In this document: one piece after another, positions 2,933 through 63,847 of the stretch | Layout: the number at the start of each line of letters is the position of its first letter | Numbering within the stretch: position 1 is the first letter of the stretch | Origin: Owenia fusiformis | Lineage: Eukaryota > Annelida > Polychaeta > Sabellida > Oweniidae | Length of the DNA: 64,000 bases | Direction of reading: 5' to 3' | Assembly (NCBI GenBank): GCA_903813345.2 | Contig: CAIIXF020000005.1 | Coordinates: 38,009,375 to 38,073,374, forward strand | The notes under the pieces: model-generated | The model's database searches: none | What the model was told of the DNA's origin: nothing | Seen by the model: the letters and a program-made list of their open reading frames with translations, nothing else | Made by a program: the position numbers and the translations under genes

Positions 2933-5900
2933 CCAAAAATCGAATTCCTGCCAGGGTATAAGAATCCATGTTGGGTAGAGGCCTTAAAAAAGGATCCGTA
3001 CTCTAATGTCCCCAAGACCACGAGTCATAGGAGATATTACAAACGCATGACAGAATATTACAACCATAGGTAAGCGACAACATGGCCTGAATAGAATATT
3101 TCAAATGAAAAAAAGACATGAAGAAAGATTCCTGGTCTTCTTAAATATGCAACTGTTATAGCAAAGTTTCTAACTAATCCACTTGACCCAAATAAACCTG
3201 AGCTTTGTGAATATTGTGGAGCACTAGAGGGAGACATTTTCTCACACAGAGCAGTAATGTGCATGGAAACTCCAGAACGAAACAATATGCTGAATAGAAT
3301 CACTGTGGCTATAGGTCAGTCTGAAGCTGGGATTTTTCTCAGAGAATTCGTTTAAACCCCTCTTCCAGTGTCAATGAAAGGCCTTTCTTGTTTTAGCGCC
3401 TGTGTTAATTTGAAAACGATAAACATAGTGTTGCCTTACTTTAGCAATATAATTAAAACTCTAATGTAGAATTAAACACACCGTTCCAATAAGCTATAAC
3501 CGTTGAGTTATGACGTGCAATCAAAACCCCAGAGGTGCAATTTTTATTTGCTTTTAACTTTTATTTTTATTTGTTTTGTTCTGTTTTGTTCTTTGTTTAT
3601 TACGTGACTGTATAAATGTTGTATTAATAATAAACTCCCACTAAAACTCAGTATGTAGATGGAAGAACGTGCTTAATGATTGAAAATTTTGTGATTTTGT
3701 TTCAGGAACCTAAATTATTTATTCAAGGTATTTATCCTCGAAGATACTCTCTTGGTTATGTCCTTTTCTGTAATAAACAATGTAACAAGTTTTAAATTAC
3801 AGATATTTACAAAACATTCGGTTTCGCTTGCGATGCCTTCCTTACTACTATATTCTTGGCCAACCTAAATGCGGTACAACAGACGTTTACTTTAAGCTAA
3901 ATTTACATCCGGACGTTGAGAAGGGAATGGGAAAAGAACTTCAATGGTGGACGAAGAGAAGATACGGTACGCAATATTAAAATTACTAAACATGACAATT
4001 ATAAAATATTTATAAACTATGTGTTTTTCACAATTCAAATGTCCCTTAAATTAAAAAGAAGAATCAAATGTGTTTTTCTCATTTCGAATGTCCGTCAAAT
4101 TAAAAAGAAGAATCAAATGTGTTTTTCCCAATTGAAATGTCCGTCAAATTAAAAAGAAGGATTAAATGTGTTTTTTTTCAATTCGAATGCCCGTCAAATT
4201 AAAAAGAAGAATCAAATGTGTTTTTCCCAATTGAAATGTCCGTCAAATTAAAAAGAAGGATTAAATGTGTTTTTTTCAATTCGAATGTCCGTCAAATTAA
4301 AAAGAAGGATTAAATGTGTTTTTCTCAATTCGAATGTCCCTGGACTGCGTTTTGATCGAAGTAATATCGTAGAGATCACGTGAATGATTTAAATAAGGCC
4401 ATAAGAAAATGTTAAGACAAGGAACATGTCAACTATATTTCATTGATGTTTTAGGTCGTGATGGATGGACCCAATCTTTGGCTGAATATGTGAATGTGTT
4501 TGATCGGGCTTCCGTTGAAATACAACGCAGCTCTAAAATTGATAATACGACACTACAAATAGTTAGAAACAAAATAACAGGTACAGTTGAACATTCATAC
4601 AGGGTGATCATTAAGTAAGATCAAAGGTGCTCTAATTTTTGTAAGCGTTATTGAATCTGGCTCATTTTCTCACAGGATGTTGATCTAATAATTAAATAAA
4701 ATTTATGTAACATTTTATATTCTGCATTCTATGGTAACCATGGCAGGGATGGTAAGGTGCATTATTACCACCTTGCCGGGCCAGTTCTAGGGGTTTAGTG
4801 CTAGTTTAGAAGGCATTCATTTTACTATATCGACCTGAGAAATGTGTGACGTCATAGTGGTGGTCCATATGGACCGGTCTAGAATATATTCTGGACCGGC
4901 AATTTTCCCCGGGAAGTTAGATATCGTTCAATTCGTAAGATTTTCTTGCTGTTTCAGTCCTGGTCGTTAACGGTGGTAGTAATACTAATAACGTCATTTC
5001 TGCGAGCAATATAGTGAAATATTGGACCTTGGGCCTTCGGCCCTCGGTCCAATATTTCACTATGTTGCCCTTAGAAATGACGTTTTTGTACTATTATCCC
5101 AATGTAGGATGAAGTGATCCACCAACTTTGGTCTTTTATTGATTGATTGATTTATTAATGGTATTCAGATACGTGTTCATCAAACGCATTAAACATCACG
5201 AAAATGTGTTGAATATATAATAGTAAATATAAAGAACACCTAAAATAAACATCTGAGAAAATAAGCATTCAAAATAATGCATTAAATATAACAAAATATG
5301 GTGGTATTTCCAAATGTATAAAACCATTAATTAAGAAAACATCATAATATCTTCTTTCTTTTTTGACTGATCCGGGTACCCTCGACATGGGTTGCCATGG
5401 TTACCATAGAACGCATAATTTATAATGTGACATGCTGAAATTAAGTGCAATGTCTTTCACCCATCATATCCTTTTTATTTCTTGTTATTATCGGACCAAA
5501 CATTCAGAGGTATGTGACAAATACCCCAAATGTTATATTAACAAAGGCACAACAGATACATGTAATTTACTCATTCCTATGGGGTGGAAAAGTTGAAAAG
5601 GTTAAGAGACGAAGTTTAATTGGCCGATTACGACGAGGGTGGTCTAAGAATGATCGACATGTTTTCTATGGAAAAAGCACTTAAACTGATGTGACTAAAA
5701 ATATTAATTGAACCTAATATAACATACAGAAAATGGTATCTTAGGCGTAGAGGAAAATTATATAAAAGTAAATTTATGACTTCATTTAATGGAAAAAGTC
5801 ACATTAGTGAATTAGTGTGAGATATTTAACTATTGCTAACTTATTTAAATTTTCATCTAATTTTTAAAAATGTTCACCAGTTATTCACAATATTTACACC

Positions 5901-25124: not shown

Positions 25125-27179
25125 TCAGAAATGCAATCCCTTGATTTTCTTAGGACTTGTGTATACTGCACCGTCGGGTAAATCCTCGTATATAGGATTG
25201 GGTTCTGTTTGTTCCTCTTTTGGATCAGTTTCTTTTACCTCTATCTTGGAATACGACGCATCACTCCACCTTTTCACACCCGTACGGTCTTTGGGCAAAG
25301 CAGGAGGTATGTTCTGCGATCCTGTTGTCTCATTAATGTACGTAGTGTCAGGCTCCTCGTCAAGAGGTACTGGTAACATTGGCTTGTGGAAATTTGACGA
25401 AAGTGTGCTTGTCCGTTTATCTGGATCTCTTGGTGACGATACTATTCTCCGAGGTGGGTATTTCTTCTTAAGTCGAGGGTAAACAAATTTGTACAGTAAA
25501 AACAGAATCAGAATGCAGAGCAGTATTGTACCGATAAAAGTACCAACGATTGCCCCTGCCAGTGTTCCCGCAGCTGCCACAGCTATTCCTTTACGTTCAA
25601 AACGTTTACCACGCTGTATGTCGATGGTAAGCGATTTTCTAGATGATGGGCCCTCGATGTTTTTCGCTAAACATTCGTAATTCCCCGAGTCTGACTGAGA
25701 CGCTCTGTCAATTTTATAAATAATTTGATTAGAATAAATATACGACGATTTGTTTTGCGCCTGTGGGTTCTCCTGTGAGGTTGACCCAGAAGGATGTCGT
25801 ACAAGTATAGTAGGCTGAGGGTCACCTTCTGCTATGCATAGTATCGTAAACGGCTCTCTGCCATATATGTCATTGTCCCCGGCGAATCGTGTGACAACTG
25901 GTTTACGACATGTCATTCTTGACAGACTCAAAGTCGACATTTCGGTGCTAAATGGTGTTCTGCAAGATGCGGAAACATTCCTCCCTTCGGACGACGAGTC
26001 GTCAAAAGATTTTTTCAACCACTGTAATTCACAATTACAGTGGAATGGATTTCCTTTAAAATGGCACTGATCAAGCTTTTCTAAAGATGGCAGCATTGTT
26101 TTATCTAAGCTAGTAAGTTTATTGTTTGAAATGTCTAATTCTTTTAGTTTCATCATATGGTCGAAAATACTGGGTTCTAAAACAAAGATGTCGTTGTCTG
26201 CCAAACTAAGATGTTGAATGTCTATGAGCGGAAGGAGATTTTCTCGAGTTATGGTTGTCAGGCCGGTATCACTAATGTCGAGAATGCGAGCGTAGCGAAT
26301 ACTTGGAAACCGACTAAAGTCAATGTTCCCTATGGGATTACTTCTTAAGTACAACCTTTCCACGTGTACGTTTTCCAGAAAGTCAATATTTGATATATTA
26401 TTGTGACTAAAGTCTATGTGTATTACTAGGTGTTTTTGCCAAGTTAATTTGTCAACTGTTTGAATGTCATTATGAGACATGTCAATGTGCATTAGATTCG
26501 TCATGTAGTCAAAGGTTCCCGGACCAATGCTGGTGAGATGGTTGCTACCTATATCAAGTAATTGAACTTTGGACATTGTTAACGAAATATCCCAGTTGAA
26601 GCGACTCATATGAATGTTCCGTAGATACAATTCCTCGACTTCACCAAAAATGGGGTATTGATTGAAATTCAAATCTCTGATGGGATTGTGGGATAAATGT
26701 AATCTCCGAGCTTTTGTAAAAGTCAAGAATTCCAGATCTTTAATCCGATTTTTCTCCAGATTAAGTGTATCCAACCTGAAGTTTTTGAATACCTGGCTTT
26801 CGATTATTGTCAGGTTACCATGGTAAAAAGTAAAATTTGTAATGTTGGCATTATTAACAAAGGCTTCATTCCGGATTTTGGTCATATTACAACTGAAGCA
26901 TTCAAATGTAGTAATCCAGAGAAAGCGGCTAAGTAGGTTCTGATTCAGTTCCAGAAATTTGGCATTTCTGAGGATCAGATGTTTAACATCACGTGTCACA
27001 TTAGGCGGGATATCTGCATCGCTGGGTTCTTTAGACATGTCACAGTCCGCTTTTAAAGTCTGGCCGGTACGTTCGCAGAAACAAGGGTACCCAGAACAAC
27101 CAGAAGTCGTATGAAGCAATGAAATGAAAACGGCCAATAGTAGCAGTTCCATATTCATATTTTCTGGGTGAATACGCAT
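25125..27179 (-). CDS. LRR-Ig single-pass receptor, intronless
   Basis: One uninterrupted 684-residue frame. A signal peptide lies near residues 8-27 (initiation could be at Met1, Met8 or Met10). A cysteine-rich LRR cap (CSGYPCFC) follows. About ten leucine-rich repeats run from residue 60 to 370, with NxL/NxI signatures such as LDISNNKLTSL. An LRR C-cap (NPFHCNCELQWLKK) comes next, then one Ig domain at about 430-520 (cysteine in FTILC, closing DSGNYECLA). The membrane segment is 531-563, then a basic stop-transfer and a 120-residue tail. The tail holds tyrosines at 614 (TTYINE), 664 (NPIYEDL, an NPxY motif) and 673 (AVYTSP), and proline-rich stretches. The plan is that of LRRIG/Lrig/Kekkon/AMIGO-type adhesion or signalling receptors; the exact orthologue cannot be named. 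The single exon suggests an old retrocopy or an ancestrally intronless coding region. Confidence 0.85.
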   Translation of the reverse strand: MRIHPENMNMELLLLAVFISLLHTTSGCSGYPCFCERTGQTLKADCDMSKEPSDADIPPNVTRDVKHLILRNAKFLELNQNLLSRFLWITTFECFSCNMTKIRNEAFVNNANITNFTFYHGNLTIIESQVFKNFRLDTLNLEKNRIKDLEFLTFTKARRLHLSHNPIRDLNFNQYPIFGEVEELYLRNIHMSRFNWDISLTMSKVQLLDIGSNHLTSIGPGTFDYMTNLMHIDMSHNDIQTVDKLTWQKHLVIHIDFSHNNISNIDFLENVHVERLYLRSNPIGNIDFSRFPSIRYARILDISDTGLTTITRENLLPLIDIQHLSLADNDIFVLEPSIFDHMMKLKELDISNNKLTSLDKTMLPSLEKLDQCHFKGNPFHCNCELQWLKKSFDDSSSEGRNVSASCRTPFSTEMSTLSLSRMTCRKPVVTRFAGDNDIYGREPFTILCIAEGDPQPTILVRHPSGSTSQENPQAQNKSSYIYSNQIIYKIDRASQSDSGNYECLAKNIEGPSSRKSLTIDIQRGKRFERKGIAVAAAGTLAGAIVGTFIGTILLCILILFLLYKFVYPRLKKKYPPRRIVSSPRDPDKRTSTLSSNFHKPMLPVPLDEEPDTTYINETTGSQNIPPALPKDRTGVKRWSDASYSKIEVKETDPKEEQTEPNPIYEDLPDGAVYTSPKKIKGLHF

Positions 27180-27343
27180 GTTTGGTGTTTGCGATGATGA
27201 TCGTGGAAGACAATTAGTTTGGTATGTTTTATCCTAGATTTATCTCGATATACGCATCTTTGAATCTAATGACCTCTCATTCCATTTCGTTTAGCCTAAT
27301 AGCTAGAGGATGCTTTTGTCAATTCTGAAAAAGGGAAATTATA

Positions 27344-29253: not shown

Positions 29254-32200
29254 TTATACATAATTTTCTATCATTGAATTTATAAGATTCCATTTTCTGT
29301 CATGCAATTCTTCTTGTCCATGTGTTTTTGCAATATATTTGTCAGCCTTCTTTTCTCTTATTAAGTATCTTTGAAAAGCATTTATGGTAGGTGTTTTTTC
29401 TTCCAATTTATTAATGTACATGAATCTCTTTATGAGTAAGGTTGCTAGGTTTTGGCTGAGAGACAATCTTGGAGATCCTAACATAAAAGCTTGGTCATCA
29501 GGTATCTCTTCATTCAGGATTCTGTAGCATTGTTGTTTGAAATCTTCCATCACTTGGCATTTCAGGAAACCATGTTCTATATCGTCTATTTGGTTGCTAT
29601 TGCACAGTACGCATGTTTGGGTTTTTACTTTTTTCATTTTGAAAAGTATTTTTCTGAAGTATATTGCCCTATTTAGTATCCTATATTGAAAATATTTCAT
29701 TTTCGTATCTTTTGTCAGTTTGTTTATTAGATTATATATTTTTTTCCATTCTATGTCTTTTTGAAAGTAGTCTCTCCATTTGGTTTGACCTGTAGGGGTC
29801 TTTTGCTTGAACTTTTTGCTGAGCTTTTGGTACGTTTTTTTATTGTCCCATGTTTTTAATCTCTCAATATTATCTTCGTCATCTTGTAAGTTGGTGTTTG
29901 CCATTAGGGTTTTCCACCTTGGTGGTATGCATCTTATAACAGTGTGGTAGTTGAGAAAGGTCTGGTTTTGTAAATTATATTGATTTCTTAGTTGATCATA
30001 ACTTTTCAAGTGACCATTTTGGTATAAGTGTTTAATTCTTGTTATACCTTTTCTTTCCCATTCTTTATTTTGAAGCGGGTTTTTGTTTTGCTTTATACAT
30101 TCATTGTTCCATATGATTTCATTGGAGGGGTTGTCAATATCCTGTTCTTTTATATATTTTACCTCGTGCCATATTTTAAGAACTTCATCCAAGCTTTTCA
30201 AATTAGTTGTAATTACATCAGACTTGTAAGGGTTTTCAATGTTATACTCTAAAATGTTATTGTCTCTGTTTTTGTCTAGTTTGTTCATCCAGATTCTTTT
30301 CCACTTACTGTTGCAATCTTCATTTTTTAGTTTACGCAGCCATTTTAGCTTTAGGTTTTTTGCATACGATTCAAGGTGTGTCATATCTAGTCCTCCTTCT
30401 TCTGTTGTTCTCCTAAGCGTTGCTCTTGCAATTTTGTCATTTTTATTTGACCATATAAAGTTGTAGAGGAGATCTTCTAGGTCTTTTAATGTGTTGTCTT
30501 GTGGTATTGGAACTGTTGTCAAAACGTATGAAAGTTGGGACTGAATTAAGGACTTTATTACACATATTTTACCAACTGGCGTTAGAGATCTTTCTTTCCA
30601 TGTTTTAATTAAATTCTTAATCTTCTGTATAGGTTTTTCTAAGTTGGCTTTCCCGATAGGTCTCCCATCCAATGGAATTGTAATTCCCAGGACCTTGATT
30701 TCAGTTTTTTCTAGTTTTGTCCCTACCTCATTGCATATGTTTTCTGCCTCTGCTGTTATAGCTCTGGTACTTTCTCCTAGTATACCTATCTTTGTTTTTT
30801 CTTTATTTATCTTTAGTCCTGAAACTTTACCAAATTTTTCAAGCATGTCTACGGAGGGTTTAATTGATGCTTTGTCATTTAGGTACAACACTGTGTCATC
30901 GGCATACTGTGACACCTTACAGTTCACATTGTCTATATCAATGCCTTTTATGTCTTTTGTTGCTCTAAGTGCAGTACTTAGTATTTCGGCACACATAATA
31001 AAAAGATAGGGCTTAATGGGCAGCCTTGACGTACTCCTCGTTCAATGTTTATGTAATTTGATGTATATCCGTTGTTGATGATAGTGCTTGTGTTGTCTTT
31101 ATATATTGTTCTTATCCAGTTTGTTATTCGTTCTCCAAAGTTAAAGTATTTCATAGTTTTATAGATAAAGTTATGTTCTAGTGTGTCAAAGGCTTTTTGA
31201 AAATCTATCATCATTACTATACCATTCCTGCCTTCTTGTTGAAGTCTTTCATTTGTATCTATGAGAAGCCTTATGTTTTCCCCTATGTATCTGCCTTTAA
31301 GAAAACCAGTCTGGTCTGTGTTTATGACTTTTTCTAGGTTGCTTTTAATTCGGTTAGCAATTGTTTTAGTAAGAATCTTGTAATCTGTGTTTAAAAGTGT
31401 AATTGGTCTCCAGTTTTTCAGTTTTGTGGCATCTTGGCCCTTTTTTGGTATGATTGTAATTATTCCGCGTCTTTGTTCTGTAGTTAATAGACCGTTTTCA
31501 AGAGAGAAGTTATAGCTTAGTATTAGTGTGTCTTTGATCTCTTTCCAGAAGTGTTTATAGAACTCTACTGGAATTCCATCTGTTCCAGGTGACTTTTTAT
31601 TCTTCATATCTCTAAGCGCTAGTACTAACTCTTCCTCTGTTAGATCTTGGTCACATTTTTCCTTGTCATATTCATTAATTGTTGTAATATTTCTTACTTG
31701 TGGAAAAAAAATGTCGTCATACTCATTTAGATTGTTTTTGGTTGCTTCGTAGAGCTTGCTGTAGAAAGCTGCTTGTTCCTTTGCTATTTCAGCTTGTGTT
31801 TCCACGCTTTCACCATTGTCTTTAATAACCTTTGACATTGTTCTGTTGTTGAAGTTTCGCTTTTCAAGTTTCAGAAAATAAGATGTTGGTTTTTCTCCTT
31901 CTGCTATCCATTTTGTTCTGCTTCTGAAAATTGTTGCTTCTGCATTTTGTGTATTTATTTGGTCAATGTCCTCAATTATATCCTGTAATTCGCGGTTTAG
32001 AAGTTCTTTCTGTCTTATTTCATTTGCATCTTTAATTTTATTTTCAATTTCTTTTGCCTTACTTTCCTTTAGTAGTAGGTCTGTATTTGTTTTCTTTTTC
32101 TGAGCCTTTGAGTACTCAATCGACACTTTTCTAATGTTGTATTTTGTTAGTTCCCATATTCCATTCGGGTTCAAGTTGTTCCTTTGTTTAGTGTTACAGA

Positions 32201-33017
32201 TTGTTGCTTTAATTAGATTATCATATTCAGGTTCTCCTATATATCTGGCATTCATTTTCCATATTCCTGGACCTCTTGGCTGATCTAGAAGTTTAATACA
32301 TATAGAAATTAATTCGTGATCTGCTATTTTGTATTGGTTCCCTGGGGTTCTTTCTATTGCTGTCTGTTCCGTGTTCTGTGCTAGTTCATGGCTTACTAGA
32401 AAATAGTCTAATCGGCATTTTATTGTGCTATTATGATTTTCCCAAGTATACACTTTGGAGTTTGGATTTTTAATTCTAAATATGTCTATTAATGTACATT
32501 CTTCCTGGAGATTTAAGATTTGCGCTCGTGTCTTTTTATGGCTTGCTATGTTTCCTCCTTCTTTATCTAAGAGTGGATTGAGTGGCACATTAAAGTCTCC
32601 TCCACATATCGGTTGGTAGTCCCGGTTTTGTTCAAGTTTTTCCATGAGTTCCTCAAAGAGCTTACTTTCGTCATGGTTATGTCCGTATACATTTATTAAT
32701 ATTACTTTTTTACCTGCTATTTTACATTTGACAATGATATATCTGCCGTTTTTGTCAATTTCATTGTCTATAAGCTCAATGTCTGCTTTTTGTGAAAATA
32801 GTATCGCTACACCTACTGTTTGTGTGCTAAATTGGGTGAAGAATGCTTTAAAACCCCATTCAAACTTCCATTGGACTACTTGTTTCGCTGCACAATGTGT
32901 TTCCTGTAGAAACATTACATCAAACTTCAGTCTCCTGGTCATGTTGAAAACCTTTCTTCTTTTAACCTTACTTTGTATACCTCTCACATTTATTGACCCT
33001 ATTTTAAGTGATACCAT
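29254..33017 (-). pseudogene. LINE ORF2: endonuclease-reverse transcriptase, one frameshift
   Basis: The N-terminal 679-residue frame (33017 to 30978) begins with an apurinic-type endonuclease: GSINVRGI, LQETH, GGDFNVPL, RLDYFL and ADHELIS in the family order. The reverse transcriptase follows, with WRPITLLNTDYKI, DFQKAFDTLEHNF and GVRQGCPLSP. The frame then breaks, and the second frame (30996 to 29254, 580 residues) continues with CAEIL and the catalytic QYADDT box. It goes on to a KIGILG segment and a C-terminal zinc-like CVLCNSN...HGFLKC. One missing base around 31004-31012, just after GCPLSP, explains the switch. No other break was seen, so the protein was recently functional, or the base is a sequencing error in a C run. 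Confidence 0.85.
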
Positions 33018-38030: not shown

Positions 38031-38159
38031 AAGGGGATTGAAAATACAATGCTGTAAATAATTGTATTATTTAGTAGTATTTTGAGGGTATTTCTCTTGC
38101 AACGCATGGCTGTTTGTGATTCCTATCACTAACTCAACGAAAGTGAAGAACATTTAAAA

Positions 38160-39452
<1,293 letters not shown>

Positions 39453-43009: not shown

Positions 43010-44854
43010 CGTTATTGATTTACTGGTCTTCATTGGAGTATATATGACCGTTTAAATTCATAAATTCAAAAAGTTCTGTTTCTAGTCTGTTTCTTGTCAA
43101 TTTTATGATTTATGTTAAATATGTGACCTCACATTTCATTCTGCGCTTTGCCAAATACCTCAATCGCTACGCAATTTTGGTATTTTAAAAACGAAAAAAC
43201 AGAATAAAATTTTCGGTCATACGCCATAAATCAAAAAAACGTTACTCCTTAATGATAACACTATAGCATTTTATGCTACGTCACAAATTTTTATTGTGAT
43301 GTCATACAAGTGGTTGATTTCTTTTTCATAAAACGCATTTTCCGATTTCATAAGTAGCTGCATTTATATTAATTTTTTGAATAAGACGGGGAAATATCAT
43401 AATATTATTTTAAGATTCAATGAAACAAATGCGGATTATAACGCCTTAGAACGTAAAACAATGACTAAAGGTTTGGGATGAGTAACTATGCACTATTTTA
43501 TGAACTCCAATTAATAAAACACTATTTAATGCACTAGAGAGTTGAAAGAGAGAAAAACGTGTTAAAACATCCCGGGATTATTTTCTACTCGCAGCTCGAG
43601 GCGAGATGTAATTGACGAGCCGAACCTTTTGGAATCATAAAATGATGTAAATGTTTTTATATCAAGCAGAGCGTTTTGCATATGATAGTGATTTCAATAA
43701 ATAGCAACATCCAGCCTAAATGACAGCCAGATACCTGATCCAGGCGTTTATCAGCTCATAAAAGTTTCTACTTTGACAATAATCCCGGTATTTAGCCTAA
43801 TAGAACCACTTAAGGAAATGAATGTGGAAACAAAACGCTTTAGCATTATTACAATATTCCGTTTACACTTTATCTGAACATCCGATATATGTTCACTTTT
43901 GAGAAATTAATCGTTAGCTTGTCATTCTGAATACCCGATAGGCAAGTTCTCCTGTTCCAAGCGTGCGATTATAGTAAGATGATGATAGGTTATTAAAATG
44001 GAACGCCTAAAGCCACTGTGAAAACAGGGCATCGTATTAGCTGTTAAAAACAATTGTAGATCAAAATGTCTTGGGGAACTAGTAAACGATGAGCATGATG
44101 ATACCCGATGATTATTACTGAAATCCTTGTACTGCACAATACTCTAAATCTATTAGAATGTAAAGGGCAGTATACAATTGCGTAATACATGTACGACACG
44201 AGTACAAATTACGGTGCCCAAATTGCATATCTATAAGGTGGGGTATTTTAATTACATACATGTAATGGATTTCAAATAACATTCAAATGCGGCCATTTGA
44301 ATTATTTGGATGCAGTTTTAAAGTTTTACATAATTTTGTGAGTTTTTATCAAATTCTCATTAATTCTGAATGGACAGCTATATTTAAATGATTTCTTGGG
44401 TTTTGATTTTGTAGTCCTAATGTGAGTACATGTGTTATTTCTATCCATGATCGTTGGATGTGTTATTATTAATTATTATTATGCTAATTATTTATTATTT
44501 AGAAATAAAATAGTCAAGGAAATACGAATAAAATGTCTTAAAATGATGCCCTTACTAGCAATTGCACGTTAACTCTCTCCCGGGGATTAGATAGTGATTT
44601 CGTGCCAAAATGGCATCAGATATCAGTGCCGATGCTTTAATAACACTCAATGTGTTTCACTTTAATTAAAGCTTAGTGCTTTGACAGTTACTGAGCAAAG
44701 TAGATTGTTTTAAACAGAAGCCATTATGTGTTAATGAGCTACTAATATTCTCGATATAGCGGCTATTTAATGTATCTTTATCATTAAAGGCTACCATAGT
44801 TGATGGTTTAGACATTTCACCTTTAGCGTTATATTATAAGCCGTTTTACTAATA
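43010..44854. other. Non-coding stretch, nothing recognised
   Basis: No exon, RNA gene or paired repeat was found; composition is AT-rich and even. Confidence 0.5.
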
Positions 44855-45332
44855 GGCTTGATCCTTAAAACGTAACACGACGCTTGGGAATTTAGTTTAT
44901 ACATTTTCTTTTTCAACCGACCATAAAGTTTTTTGTTTGTTAGATGCTTGTCATTAGCTAATTTACCTTTGCCATAATTGCTCGAACCCATTCATAACTC
45001 ACGGAACTATATACTTATGAAAGATTTATCGGTAGCATTACGGATTATATGCATTTTTGTTTTGTATTTTTCACTCACATCTGCGAAAGCAAGGCTTGAT
45101 CCTTAAACAGAAACTCGACGCTTGGGGCTTAAGTTTATAAATTTTCTTTTTCAACCGACCATAAAGTTTTTTGTTTGTTAGATGTTTGTCATTAGCTAAT
45201 TTACCTTTGCCATAATTGCGCGAACCCATTCATAACTCACGGAACTATATACATGTGAAAGATTTATCGGTAGCATTACGGATCATATACATTTTGTTTT
45301 GAATTTTTCACTCACATCTGCGAAAGCAAGCT
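44855..45332. repeat. Tandem duplication, two ~237 bp units
   Basis: Units begin GGCTTGATCCTTAAA at about 44855 and 45092 and end GCGAAAGCAAG. Identity is high in the middle (CAACCGACCATAAAG, TTCATAACTCACGGAAC) and lower at the start. Short frames across it are not conserved between units, so it looks non-coding. Confidence 0.85.
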
Positions 45333-51104: not shown

Positions 51105-52556
51105 TAATACCTGAATGTATGTCCGACTTGCATTGTATGCTTGCATAAATGTCCGACTTGCATTGTATGCTTGCATGAATCTCCCACTTTTATTGTATGC
51201 TTGCATGAATCTCCCACTTTTATGGTATGCTTGCATGAATGCCCGACTTGCACTGTATGATTGCATGAATGCCAGACTTGTATGTATGCTTGCATGAATG
51301 TCCCATTTGTATTGTATGCTCGCATGAATGTCCCACTTGCATTGTATGTTTGCATGAATACCCGACTTGCATTGTATGCTTGCATGAATGTCCCGCTTGC
51401 ATTGTATGTTTGCATGAATGCCCGGCTTGCATTGTATGCTTGTATGAATGCCCCATTTGCATTGCATGCTTGCAAGAATGTCCCACTTGCATTGTATGCT
51501 TGCATGAACTTCCCATTTGCATTGTATGTTTGCATGAATGTCCCACTTGCATTGTCTGCTTGCATGAATGCCCGAGGTGCACTGCATGATTGCATAAATG
51601 CCCGACTTGCATTGCATGCTTGCTGAATGTTTCATTTGCATTGTATGCTTGCATGGATATCCCACTTGCATTGTATGTTTGCATGAATGTCCCACTTGCA
51701 TTGTATGCTTGCATTGTATGCTTGCACGAATCAGAAATGTCTCATTTGCATTGTATGCTTGTATGAATGTCCCATTTGCATTGTATACTTGCATGAATGT
51801 CCCACTTGCATTGTATGCGTGCATGAATGTCCCATTTGCATTGTATACTTGCATGAATGTCCCACTTGCATTGTATGCGTGCATGAATGTCCCATTTGCA
51901 TTGTATGCTTGCATGGATGTCCCACTTGCATTTTATGCTTGCATACATGTCCCAGTTGCATTGTATACTTGCATTAATGTTGCATTGTGTGCTTGCATGG
52001 ATGCTCCACTTGCATTGTATACTTGCATTAATGTTGCATTGTCTGCTTGTATGAATGTCCCATTTGCGTTGTATGCTTGTATGAATGTCCCATTTGCATT
52101 GTATGCTTGCATGAATGTCCCACTTGCATTGTATACTTGCATGAATGTTGCATTGTATGCTTGTATGAATGTTCCATTTGCATTGTATGCTTGCATACAT
52201 GTCCCAGTTGCATTGTATACTTGCATTAATGTTGCATTGTATGCTTGCATGAATGTCCAACTTGCATTTTGTGCTTGCATGCATATCCGACTTGCATTGT
52301 ATGCTTGTATGAATGTTCCATTTGCATTGTATGCTTGCATGAATGTCCCATTTGCATTGTATGCTTGCATACATGTCCCAGTTGCATCGTATACTTGCAT
52401 AAATGTTGCATTGTATGCTTGCATGAATGTCCAACTTGCATTTTGTGCTTGCATGCATATCCGACTTGCATTGTATGCTTGTATGAATGTCCCATTTGCA
52501 TTGTATGCTTGCATGAATGTCCCACTTGCATTGTATGCTTGAATGAATGTCCAACG
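51105..52556. repeat. Minisatellite, ~30 bp unit, about 48 copies
   Basis: The unit is close to GAATGTCCCACTTGCATTGT followed by ATGCTTGCAT. Variants have CCCATTTGC, CCAACTTGC or TATACTTGCAT. Shorter 24 bp units lacking CCCACT appear from about 51970 on, and pairs of units form a higher-order pattern near 51770-51900. Because 30 and 24 are multiples of three and stops are rare in the unit, long frames open in many registers on both strands, such as a minus-strand frame repeating AYNASGTFMQ. These appear to be by-products of the repeat. Confidence 0.95.
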
Positions 52557-55186: not shown

Positions 55187-55352
55187 CAATTGTTGACCTC
55201 TCAAGAGGTCAACCGGCAAAATTGTATACCGAGACTGTAAACCGAGAAACTACTGTTGACAGAGACCGAAGGTCGAGGTCAACAGTAGTTTCAAGGTTTA
55301 CAGTCGAGGTATATGATTTTTACGGTTGACCGAATGGAGAGGTCTACAATTG
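55187..55352. repeat. Hairpin-forming inverted repeat, 166 bp
   Basis: Outer arms CAATTGTTGACCTCTC and GAGAGGTCTACAATTG; inner arms GACTGTAAACC and GGTTTACAGTC, then AAACTACTGTTGAC and GTCAACAGTAGTTT, around a loop CCGAAGGTCG. Same style of foldback element as 4990-5084. Confidence 0.8.
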
Positions 55353-57264: not shown

Positions 57265-60200
57265 ATGATTTTTATTCGTATGCTGACATCGAGTTTGATT
57301 CTGACTCTTCACGGATATGGCGTACAAGGGGGTTTCGAGTGGCACAATGTTGCCGCATTTAAGCCAGTCACTAGCGAACCTTTGAACGCAACATGTGGCG
57401 ACCAATCCAAGAAGGAAACGCCCTCGTTTTGCACACGTACAAGCGGTTGTGAGATTTGCTTAGCTGATTGTCCTCACGGGACAGATAATGAGGTCCCGTT
57501 GCATAATGACATCATTGGAGTACTTGCCCGGGATCAACCCGACTTCTTTAAGGATGTCCCGTCTGACAAATGTGCAATTGGTTCGCCAAATTCATCACCT
57601 TGCATCACGCTAGTTGAAGACAAGTTTTGTCAGATCAAAAACGATACATTTCCAGAATTATACAATGAGATTGAAGACCTAGCGTATGGTCTGACAGTTT
57701 ATATCAAACCTGTTGATTACACATTTTCTGGTACAGATTACAGGTAAGGATAATATCTTCATCTATAAGTGTAACCAACTAACATAATTTTCTATGGAAA
57801 ACATATATCTAATATCGAAAAAAATATATCATATACATGTTCATTGTTTAATCAAAGCGAGGTCCTGGTGTGATAATTTGTTTAATTCAGTTATAAATCA
57901 TATTTACAAAACCTAATATGCATATGTTTAGAGTTTTAAAATCGTAAGTTCAAAATTCGGAATTATAAAATAGATTGAATGAAAAATGTTAAATCTGGAG
58001 TAAAAAACGTGCTCGTTAGTTCAAAACCCAAAACAATCATTACAAGAATATGTAGCTATGAATACACATTCGATTGCGATGAATACTCAAAAGTCATTTT
58101 ATGTGGAAATTCACTGTTAGGATTATCGTAGGTTGACAAAATATTTACTCTAACGTATTACATTTTACTCTCATTTTTTGCTGTTATTGAATGTAACCAT
58201 AGTTCGTTTCAACATTAAACAAATAGGTGTGACGAGGAAGTTAAATTCGCATACCTATCAATTCTAGAACGTTAGTGACATTGAGCGGCACAGTTGAAGG
58301 ATCAGTCTCCAGCGAGGTATTACACCTAGGAATCAACAAATCAGGGGCCTTGTATTTGGTGCACCTTGGGCGTTCGATTCCTGTCTCAAACTCATTGGTG
58401 AAAGATGAGTGGACCTTCGTAGCAATCCAGGTGTGCATTTCAGCAGAATTTCCTCCTTTTGTCAAGAAAACTCTAACAATATACAGGGTGTTTCATATGT
58501 ATGCATTCCCACCTAAACTCATACATGTAACGTTGCCACCCTTTCATGCTAAAGTATATGCAATTTTGTTACTTTTGGAAAGTATCAGAATCTCGGGATG
58601 TCCGTGATAAAAGATACAATGTATCACTGACCGTATGCAGGTACTGGTTCATTTAGAAGAAATTCATGTAGAAAGAATTTCTGATCATGAAATGTACCTT
58701 GAAGAGGTATAGTAAAAACTAAAGTGCACTACAGGTCATTTAAAACTTTAACGAGAGAGAAGTGTATTAAAAGTTCAAAGGAAATCAAATGAGGTAAAAA
58801 TATTAAGGGGGAAAGAGATTTTTGGTTTCAATTAAAAAACAACATACGTTGAAACATTTTCTATACCATTTGTCAGGTTACGTTCAGATGAACACAAAAT
58901 TTTCTTGATCGAGTTTACGTGGGGGGGGGGGCATATATATGAAATACTCTGTACACATTGCTATGACACTTTATACTATGAAACTCCAATGGCTGTCAGT
59001 TGTTAATTCGTATTGTACTTGTCTGGTTAGACATCTATACAATGTGATACAAAGTAAACCTAAAAATATTTTTAAAAAAACATTTAAATCAAACAATTTG
59101 TCTTTGATGCGCGATGAAATGGGCTATTTTTTAATCATGTAATTAATGATTGATATGATACTTTAGGTCTACAGGAATCACGTCAGTTTGTTCCTCAATG
59201 GGATTCATGTCATATATGACAATAAGGCAACATATGGCAATGTCACACTACATCACTTCAGTGTGGGGAAAAGTGAAGCAGGTAAGACTTAAGACATGCT
59301 ATTGAAGTCCGATATATTGTAGCCGATTCGGTTGCCATACTTTACAACATACCACAAACTACCTCCTCGTGATTGTAATATGGAGGATCGGGAACCTGCT
59401 CTATCCTCCCATACTAATACAATCTCTGCAATGCACAAGAATGTTCTAGAAGGAAACTGAGATAAGGCTGTGATATCTCACGATGCCATAAATGAGTCTT
59501 TCATGGAAGCATTGCTCCTCCTCTTTTATTCGCAGACATTTTTATTTACAATATATATTCTGTGTGCTAAAAAATATTCAAATCCAAACTGAATGATTAC
59601 AGGTGACGAGGTATTCCATGGTGGAATACAGCAGCTGAGAATATATGGGAAGACCCCCACTAACAAGTATAACTATTAATATAATTGACGATATGAAATT
59701 AGAAAAAATTGAAATTATCCTATTTATAATTATAATAATACACTAAGTCTATATTTAAATTTTTGTTGAATAATAAAATGTTATAGTTTGAAAATAACAA
59801 CATAATAAAATGTTTCGCGCTTGTTTTTTATTATTCATTATTTCAATCGGTCTTATTTCTCAAACAGCGTAATGTACATTTATTTATTTGAATTTATGCA
59901 GAACAATCTGATTCATTAAAATATTTTAAAAGGGATATTGCAACGTTTGCAAATAATAAGTGGAGACCTTCAAATACGACAATGTGCAGATGTCCCGAGG
60001 CTTTCCCAGAAGAGTGGGATGCAAGCGGCTCTCAGTATTGTCGAACTAATAACTTCATCATCCAAAGAGGAAGCTACGTCAGAAGGGATACCGTATCTTA
60101 TGCCACGTGGATCTCACAAATTTATGTGACTTTTCAGAACAATTCGATTGACATAGGCATTGATCTCGAACAATCAGTTGAGGTTAGTAAGCGTGTATAA

Positions 60201-63200
60201 TAATAATTTTACGTCTAACTTCTGTCAAAATATCGTCCTGGAGTGGGACAGCTAGACGTTATCACCTTCGAATGCCTAAACGTTTCAGGAACTTTGATAT
60301 ACATGTACAAATGGTCTTGCATTGACTTCCCGTCGCCTAGAGTATGAAACTTGAACCTACGAGAAAAATAATACAATCCTAATTAACAAAGCTCAATAAG
60401 CATTTACACATGTCTTTACAACAAATGCAACCGGTTTTCAAATGTCAAATATGAGCTTTTACATCTTTAGGTACAGCACATTGAGCTATCGACATACTCC
60501 GGCCTTTTCATGGACCTACTTCCTTTACGGAGCCTTGTGGTAGAAAAGCGAACTACACCTGGCATAGGACCTTGGCAAACCTGGCAGTACTACTCTAAAT
60601 CGTGCCTACAGGACTTCAACATTAAGCCTGATCAACCACTTCAAACTGATACAGATGTTATTTGTAAAGATCTCAGGTGAAATGTGTTTTTGATAGCTTC
60701 ATTGATTTTGTCTATATATTCTCGAATCTAATTGTAATAGCAAGGGTTTTTGGTTAACAAAGATAGTACAGATAAACTATAATACTACCCATCCAACTAT
60801 TTTACAGTTTTTTGCCACAAACATATACACAGGGTGTTCAAAACGCAACCGAAAAAAATCGCTATATCTTGGAAAATACTTTAGTGCAATTGTGTTAATC
60901 TTTTCAGTAGAGAAATAAGAGACCCTAAATGTATATCTCCTATGATTAGAAAAACACAATGCCTTGGTCACCCTTTCTTTCTGAAAAAATGAACACAATT
61001 GGTTTAGTATTTTCTAAGTAAAAGCGATTTCTTTGGGTTGTCTTTTTGAACACCCTGTATAATTATTTCAAAAACAAAACTTAATTGGTTTTCAGTTGGT
61101 TGTGACAAGATTAATCTATTAAACTCCCGTCATAATAAAAATTAATTCATTTCAGTAAAACAAGCTATAGTCGTTCGATAAGGTTTGAACTGATAGACCA
61201 AGAACGAGCTGGTAATGATACATCGAAGTTAACTGAATCATTGGCCACGTTCATAAGAGCTGGAGAAATACGAGTACATATGGCACTTGCTAGTGAATTC
61301 CTGAACATTACTGCTGAGATCAAACAAATTGTTGGCATTCTGGAGTTCAAAGTTATAGCCAGGTAATTTGTGTTCCTTATTAATGTACATACCTACTATA
61401 AAACCCGCCTCCTGTTCCAGGTTTCACACAAAAAACGTTCATGAAAACGAAAACTTATTGTATTCGAATATACCAAACGTATTTGAAAAATATAAATGGA
61501 CATTATTTTCCATGATACGTATGGTACGAAGCGCGGTTCCAATTTGCCACTAGGCTTTCTTTAGCATGCTTGCCCTCTTTTCGTTCAAAGGAGAATTATT
61601 TGTATTGAAGGTGTTTCTGCAACGGTTATGGCGACACCTGCAATACGACGCAAACACCATACGTTTGTTCGTGTACATCTATTTCAAACAGAACGGGACT
61701 GCAGTGCGAAAAGTGTAAGTTTGGCTTTTACATGAAAAATAATTCGTGTATTCCGTGTCCAAGCTGTAACGTTGCTGGTGTAGTGAAAACAGAAACATGC
61801 GACAGGGTAAGTGTCTTAATGAAATACAACACCTGATACCGATCATAATTACATATTGAATCGTTGAAGAATAACGAAAAAGTAATTTGTGAAGATAAAT
61901 GTATTTGGACGGACTGTACTACATAGTCTTATGTTCGTTTGCGTTTTTTTGACTCCTGATCATTCCAATCAATCTCTATTTTACATCCACAATATTAACA
62001 TGATTGCCTTTCAAATGAATAATTTCAGGTAACTGGCCAATGCCCATGTAAGGCTAACTTTGAAGGTTTACTCTGCGACCAATGCAAAAATAAAGGTTGC
62101 TCCTGTCCTAGTAATTTACAAGGAGTAAACTGTGATTCCTGCAAGCCAGGGTATTTCAACTTCACCAATGACAACCCAAATGGATGTGAAGCTTGTAATT
62201 GTGATCCCCATGGCTCTGTCAATAGTGGATCAGGAGTATATGAGTGCGATGCTTCTACTGGTTATTGCCCATGCCTTGCTAATGCACATGGTGCAAAATG
62301 CACGAAATGCGACGATGGTTATTATTGGGATGATGGATGTAAACCTTGCCAATGTCATACGCCAGGAACAATTGCCCAAAGTAGGATTTGCAATGTCACA
62401 AGGCAATGTCTTTGTAAGAGACACGTATCGGGGATGAGGTGCGACTCATGTGATGACATGCACTGGAAGCTGTCCCTTTCCAACGCTGATGGGTGTCAAC
62501 CATGTAACCACTGCTACAACAAGGGAACCGTGCAACATAGGGGAATGAGTAGATGTCACAAAACAACAGGGCAATGTGAGTGTGAGGAAGCAGGAGCTAT
62601 GGACAGGGCAGGCTATTATTGTGTATGTTCATCTTAATACAGTCGTTTTGGTTCGTGTATCCATTTGAAATATTTTCCCAAATATTTAAAATAATTATTG
62701 GTTCGCCAATTTCTTCGCTTGACAACCAATGTGCTGCATGCTTATTTGATTTGACTAGATGATAGTTTCGTACATTTATAATCATTCCATTCAATTTGTC
62801 CTTTTATGAATTGCAAGATCGTTCATGATGCTTAATATCAAGATCAAATTTATAAAGTTTCACTTTACTCATATAGAGGCCGTATGTGACGTCAATCGTG
62901 CCTCTTTATGGCCCTGTGGCAGGTGGAACAAACATCACCATAAGTGGAGCGCACTTTGGTTCGGAAAACGCGACGGTGAACATTGGGGGCAAGGCATGCT
63001 TAGTATTCAACATGTGAGTTGGACATTCTGGAGATACGTTGTCTTAATTGTTAAGATTTGTCACGGTATACCTGTACACCATGTTATAGTCTAGATGTCA
63101 GGAATTTACTAAGATTGTGATCCTTTATATGCACGATATGTTTTTATAATAATTCTAATGTGGTTGACAATCGTTTTAAAGACAACCATAGCTCTCGCTA

Positions 63201-63847
63201 AAGAAATCTAAGCACTTGTGCTTAAATATTTGTAAATGAATTATTGTTCACGTGCTAAGATATTCAATATTAATGGGAATTAATTCTAGGACAGCAATCG
63301 AGTTACATTGTACCAGCCAAGAGTTTGATTCCTCTGGGAAGATTGGAGAAAATGATGAATTTCCACAGGAGTTAGTGATAACTCTTGCAGATGGAATTAC
63401 CCTTCCAAATAATCACACGAATTTCACCTACAAAGGTAACCCGGATATAGAAGGTTTTTGGCCGCGTGAACTTTTTGAAAGGTATGGAACTGATCGAATC
63501 ACTTTATTTATAAAAGTAAGCATCTTGTACGTCAAGTTGTTGTTAACTTTGAAATATTTATTTGCATTTTTTAGTAAACTTGCTTTGGATGATAATATAC
63601 TGTACATGTAGAATGAACCCAGTGCTTTATTAAAGATATCTGCTAACCGGTGACATAATCTAAGAGCAAAATGATATAGCAATACGAATTGAGGTAAAAT
63701 GGATAATTTCAATGGCAATGTTATATCTTATATTATTTTAGCGGGGGATCAAATGTGACGGTGCGGGGAAATAACCTTGACTCTGTACACCAAGTCATTA
63801 TGAAAATAATCATGGTTTATAAAGGCGAGGAAACAGTTTTCGAACAG
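57265..63847 (+). CDS. Usherin-like laminin-domain protein with IPT/TIG-like domains, first 12 exons
   Basis: Exons: 57265-57743, 58268-58430, 59167-59281, 59603-59666, 59933-60182, 60471-60676, 61156-61362, 61611-61806, 62029-62622, 62877-63013, 63290-63481 and 63742-63847. All GT-AG and in phase: 903 codons, open at the window's end. Order of parts: signal peptide; cysteine-rich N-terminal region; laminin-G-like domain through exons 2-4 (EWTFVAIQ, VSLFLNG, QQLRIYGKTP); laminin N-terminal domain in exons 5-7 (starting CRCPEAFPEEW and closing with EFKVIAR); laminin-type EGF repeats in exons 8-9 (CFCNGYGDTC onward, about five). Exons 10-12 resemble IPT/TIG domains (VPLYGPVAGGTNITISG, GGSNVTVRGNNL). 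The first three parts match the start of usherin (USH2A), a matrix protein of sensory-cell links and basement membranes, which continues with fibronectin III rather than IPT. Exon 2 must start at 58268: the earlier AG at 58226 would run into a stop. Confidence 0.8.
60828..61059. mobile_element. Mariner-like MITE in intron 6 of the usherin-like gene
   Basis: Ends ACAGGGTGTTCAAAA and TTTTTGAACACCCTGT are complementary, with the inner GCAACCGAAAAAAATCGCT and AGCGATTTCTTTGGGTTG also pairing imperfectly. TA-rich flanks on both sides suit a Tc1/mariner-type TA target. About 230 bp, non-coding. Confidence 0.65.

Follow-up and report, generated by a model that had tools for sequence, protein, structure and literature searches.

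What kind of protein is encoded by a gene in which exons for laminin-type EGF modules appear to run directly into exons for IPT (TIG) domains? The question is raised by a locus towards the 3' end of the window, that is, of the whole 64,000-nucleotide stretch of DNA that was analysed. Usherin is a matrix protein of the eye and the ear. According to the available part of PMC10258241, it carries a LamG-like domain, a laminin N-terminal domain and ten laminin-EGF modules in that order, and then fibronectin III repeats. The IPT domains of MET and of the plexins sit in the extracellular part of membrane receptors, as described in the accessible portions of PMC8249616 and PMC6374515. Judged from the sequence, an usherin-type head followed by MET/plexin-type IPT domains is probably a real domain order at this locus. 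We lean towards the view that the gene encodes a large extracellular protein in which this head and an IPT tandem are combined in a membrane-anchored receptor for matrix sensing or adhesion.

Twelve exons were placed on the forward strand between 57265 and 63847, with GT donors throughout, AG acceptors from exon 2 onward and mutually consistent phases, and together they encode 903 residues without a stop. The domains follow one another along the DNA in compatible reading phases. In the 903 residues, the Pfam order was Laminin_G_3, Laminin_N, EGF_laminin and TIG, all above the curated cut-offs by which matches were counted (listing limit E 1), and this agrees with the order LamG, LamNT, laminin-EGF and IPT that had been given in a preliminary description of this DNA. 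Only the front part of the gene lies within the window, and the gene extends past its 3' end. The donor of exon 12 (CAG|GTAAGG) ranked first of the 123 GT sites between 62000 and 63990 by a matrix built from eight sites, which suggests that the gene continues beyond the window. The codon bias was too weak for judging exons, with 51 of 5000 background segments scoring at least as high as exons 10 to 12. In each of 20000 background stretches 435 bases long there was a stop; since the exons had been picked as open, this does not count as independent evidence. In NCBIfam, one repeat model was matched below threshold (E 0.0015). A hairpin at 55207-55331, some 2 kb ahead of the gene, has two 61-base arms, 82% complementary and spaced by 3 bases.

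The head of the protein would consist of a leader, a LamG-like domain, a laminin N-terminal domain and a laminin-EGF rod. Exon 1 (57265-57743) holds the start codon, the leader and an N-terminal segment that is rich in cysteine and was not matched by Pfam. The leader is moderately hydrophobic and may be a signal peptide; the 19-residue stretch with the highest hydropathy of the 903 residues (1.31) lies in it and begins at residue 2. The LamG-like domain (Laminin_G_3, residues 177-277, E 2.6e-8) begins in exon 2 (58268-58430), has its middle in exon 3 (59167-59281) and ends in exon 4 (59603-59666). When this region alone was compared with the PDB, no credible match was obtained, the best one being an ADP-ribosyl cyclase at E 0.047. 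A second Pfam match to the region, 3keto-disac_hyd, which was the sole additional match to the 903 residues, scored below its cut-off and was rejected. The laminin N-terminal domain (Laminin_N, residues 326-471, E 5.9e-15) begins in exon 5 (59933-60182), of which the acceptor is weak by eye and was chosen because it restores the phase, and it continues through exon 6 (60471-60676) to its end in exon 7 (61156-61362). Intron 6 contains an inverted repeat at 60840-61046, with two 41-base arms that are 80% complementary and may be the termini of a small DNA transposon.

By Pfam and the cysteine positions, exon 8 (61611-61806) encodes laminin-type EGF module 1 and the start of module 2, and exon 9 (62029-62622), with an uncertain 3' end, encodes the remaining modules. 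EGF_laminin matched five stretches when the whole protein was searched (E 3.5e-26). The EGF part as drawn has 42 cysteines, an even number, which we group as modules of 8, 8, 4, 8, 8 and 6, giving about six modules; the last of them, with its six cysteines, stops at the splice site of exon 9. The best PDB match to residues 1-758 was laminin beta-1 (E 2.5e-24). The laminin and netrin short arms are like this head in having LamNT and laminin-EGF, but here a LamG-like domain lies ahead of LamNT and IPT domains lie behind the EGF rod. With usherin (USH2A) the likeness goes further, because there too a LamG-like domain precedes LamNT and laminin-EGF follows in the same order; the difference is that about six EGF modules (five Pfam stretches) are found here and ten in usherin. 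The head order documented for usherin (PMC10258241, available part) is also what speaks for an usherin with an IPT insertion, in which the fibronectin III repeats would come after the IPT domains, outside the window. However, the number of laminin-EGF modules, about six against ten, argues against this explanation, and we consider it unlikely. It overlaps with the membrane-anchored receptor that we prefer, since usherin is itself membrane-anchored. The long fibronectin III part of usherin, its later LamG pair, its membrane segment and its PDZ motif would all fall beyond the window here.

The segment 62877-63847, which the preliminary description had singled out, corresponds exactly to exons 10 (62877-63013), 11 (63290-63481) and 12 (63742-63847), and the sequence motifs quoted there were present. 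As had been stated, these exons can splice in phase, with AG acceptors and GT donors and with entry phases of 0, 2 and 2 that fit the preceding exons. Exon 10, of which the acceptor is likely rather than certain, encodes the first half of IPT domain 1 (by TIG and by matches to MET and plexins), exon 11 the second half and the beginning of domain 2, and exon 12, apparently spliced onward past the window, belongs to the first half of domain 2. Thus exons 10 to 12 cover IPT domain 1 completely and domain 2 in its N-terminal half. The earlier reading of these exons as IPT/TIG-type domains was therefore right as to type and has to be revised as to number, which is about one and a half. The 145-residue piece encoded by exons 10 to 12 matched TIG with 60.9 bits and E 1.2e-16 (cut-off 20.9 bits), and in the whole protein TIG matched two stretches (E 7.7e-15), the first at residues 760-817. 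Taken alone, IPT domain 1 matched TIG at E 2.2e-12, and the half of domain 2 within the window at E 0.0014 with 19.0 bits, slightly under the cut-off. A match of Plexin_RBD to the half domain, at E 0.17, was taken as chance. IPT domain 1 holds two cysteines, and two cysteines are described for IPT domains in the available part of PMC6374515. When the protein was compared with the 64,000 nucleotides by tblastn at E 1, the IPT exons proved to have no other copy in the window.

It had been allowed at the outset that these exons could be divergent fibronectin III domains. IPT and fibronectin III are both immunoglobulin-like folds, and the AlphaFold2 models were unusable for telling them apart, with a mean pLDDT of 36.9 from one sequence and 34.6 from a two-row alignment and with no usable fold. 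By sequence the Pfam comparison pointed the other way: beside the strong TIG match, the fn3 model gave no match to the IPT part at a limit of E 1 or of E 10, although the HMMER filters conceal most weak matches. We therefore regard fibronectin III domains as extremely improbable here.

Solved structures place the IPT piece more closely. Among 177635 distinct PDB sequences, the 145-residue piece had 10 matches at E <= 1, and these were from MET and plexins only: four from MET, two from plexin A4, two from plexin A1, one from plexin A2 and a marginal one from plexin C1 (E 0.45). The closest was MET (E 5.7e-15), followed by plexins A4, A1 and A2. The best alignment includes IPT domain 1 and half of IPT domain 2 and spans residues 657-778 of MET, which we take to be IPT2 and the start of IPT3. 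IPT domain 1 alone matched the same chains of MET and the A-type plexins, and the next match came at E 1; the half domain 2 alone had no significant match in the PDB, the best being at E 0.41. The stalk thus appears to be of the MET/plexin kind among those IPT families that have solved structures. No fibrocystin chain was among the 10 matches, and the PDB set may contain none. Proteins of the fibrocystin type have several IPT repeats and further domains typical of that family.

The join between exon 9 and exon 10 is the weak point of the gene model. As drawn, it leads from 62622 to 62877 in agreeing phases across an intron 9 of 254 bases. The donor of exon 9 (TGT|GTATGT) matches the consensus at five of nine positions and ranks 56th of the same 123 GT sites, and the acceptor of exon 10 ranks 17th of 95. 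Because the donor of exon 4 likewise matches five of nine positions, weak donors are not limited to this junction. We scanned the whole of exon 9 for pairs of donor and acceptor that were in frame and free of stops and left an intron of 60 bases or more, and scored them from eight donors and eight acceptors. There were 80 such pairs, and the drawn pair ranked 19th by this small local score. The acceptor at 62877 occurs in seven of the 80, among them three that outscore the drawn pair; their donors (62124, 62424 and 62235) all lie earlier in exon 9. The pair with the top score overall, 62438 to 62879, would lose the end of the EGF part. The donor at 62575 matches eight of nine consensus positions, and its in-frame partners are only acceptors inside IPT domain 1. 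Its better pair, with the acceptor at 62923, trims the last EGF module as well as IPT domain 1 at its start, and with 62923 instead of 62877 the TIG score falls from 46.4 to 27.8 bits. We prefer the donor at 62622 because an open frame with an EGF-like cysteine pattern reaches it, a stretch that would be lost with the earlier donors. All 80 pairs keep EGF-coding before IPT-coding sequence, and many of them cut into one or the other; the domain order is therefore firmer than the exact junction.

If the model were wrong at this join, the usherin-like transcript would end after exon 9 or continue elsewhere, and the IPT exons would be part of another transcript. The IPT frame is shut by a stop codon immediately before exon 10, and with an intron 9 of so few bases this makes a separate in-frame gene starting there unlikely. 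In-frame joins do exist, and EGF-like coding sequence reaches the junction. On the other hand, the donor at 62622 is weak, and read-through beyond exon 9 would add four residues before a stop, so that a short secreted form is conceivable. On balance we consider an error at the join improbable, and it is very likely that EGF and IPT share one transcript.

With exon 9 joined to exon 10, and only then, the protein has IPT domains at the place that the first fibronectin III repeats occupy in usherin. MET and the protein are alike in that IPT domain 1 and half of domain 2 align with MET residues, and differ in that the 903 residues were not matched by any Sema or PSI model at E 1; the kinase region of MET would lie beyond the window. 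The same holds for the plexins and the Met-LP receptors: the IPT part aligns with plexins A4, A1 and A2, whereas neither Sema nor PSI was matched here at E 1, and the intracellular GAP region of plexins would again lie beyond the window. Since two features of usherin (ten EGF modules and fibronectin III next) were not found, and neither were Sema and PSI, we file the protein under neither usherin nor MET/plexin. By analogy, it may work in parts like a combination of the two. It is conceivable, if doubtful, that the protein is a relative of MET and the plexins in which an usherin-type laminin head replaces Sema-PSI, in other words a signalling receptor, with a kinase or GAP inside, that senses matrix in place of HGF-like or semaphorin ligands.

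In the course of events that we envisage, exon shuffling would have put an IPT stalk behind a laminin-EGF rod, and the mRNA would contain an in-frame splice between exons 9 and 10. The head would bind proteins of the basement membrane or of the neighbouring matrix, the IPT tandem would be a spacer that keeps the head at a distance from the cell, with a membrane anchor at its end, and the whole protein would act as a matrix-sensing or adhesion receptor. Because the head is usherin-like, usherin binds type IV collagens (work cited in PMC4878875, available part) and the IPT domains of MET and plexins occur in receptors, we infer a head that binds matrix, carried on an IPT spacer, in a protein more probably anchored than secreted. 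Given EGF and IPT on one transcript, membrane anchoring is likely.

A secreted matrix protein with the same domain order would be a different outcome. Here LamNT and laminin-EGF would join the basement membrane or another matrix, and the IPT domains would be further spacers or binding modules without an anchor. All the domains seen are extracellular in kind, and the 903 residues include 20 N-glycosylation sequons. The 19-residue hydropathy scan, with its maximum at the leader, found no clear membrane segment in them, and the part of the gene within the window contained no kinase or other anchor. In RNA-seq of a mussel, a transcript named usherin, which may or may not correspond to the present protein, had the top fold change in the mantle, according to the available part of PMC4581086. 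However, MET and the plexins, which are the nearest IPT relatives by the PDB comparison, act as receptors in the membrane (PMC8249616 and PMC6374515, in their accessible portions), and we consider secretion possible and rather less probable than anchoring.

Among the literature matches listed, with subscription journals mostly outside their scope, there was no description of the order LamG, LamNT, laminin-EGF and IPT. A survey of plexin and Met receptors took the Sema domain as its key criterion and used Sema queries (PMC6374515, available part), so a protein without Sema would be outside its reach. A single 339-residue query, which reaches close relatives only, gave no pattern match in a scan of viral contigs, and the seven pattern matches that it gave in a scan of prokaryotes included no relative. 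Orthologues may well be annotated already in public genomes; a lineage-specific architecture, as proposed in the preliminary description, is a possibility. If the joining of usherin-type and MET/plexin-type modules is true, the usherin head would be portable, a laminin-like head might be coupled to a receptor stalk, and there would be IPT receptors beyond the reach of a survey based on Sema. Should the gene end as an ordinary secreted matrix protein, it would be one more mosaic protein of animals.

Other features were observed elsewhere in the window. There are tandem repeats at 4019-4339 (a 49-base unit in 6.5 copies), at 44854-45330 (a 238-base unit, tandemly duplicated with 93% matching) and at 51115-52552 (a 30-base unit, with about 20 copies in one block and about 28 in another). 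Three open frames of 310-314 codons, one on the forward and two on the reverse strand, lie in or across the last of these arrays. A non-LTR retrotransposon on the reverse strand (29257-33017), whose matches to endonuclease and reverse transcriptase are divided between two open frames that overlap, is probably a decayed copy. Also on the reverse strand, an open frame of 702 residues at 25128-27233 has leucine-rich repeats and an immunoglobulin domain by Pfam and, by eye, a membrane-like hydrophobic stretch behind the latter, as in an LRR-Ig surface protein. An open frame without a Pfam match (38133-38636) lies upstream of one on the forward strand (38853-39449) that contains a homeodomain (Pfam E 3.2e-22), presumably of the HMX/NK5 type.
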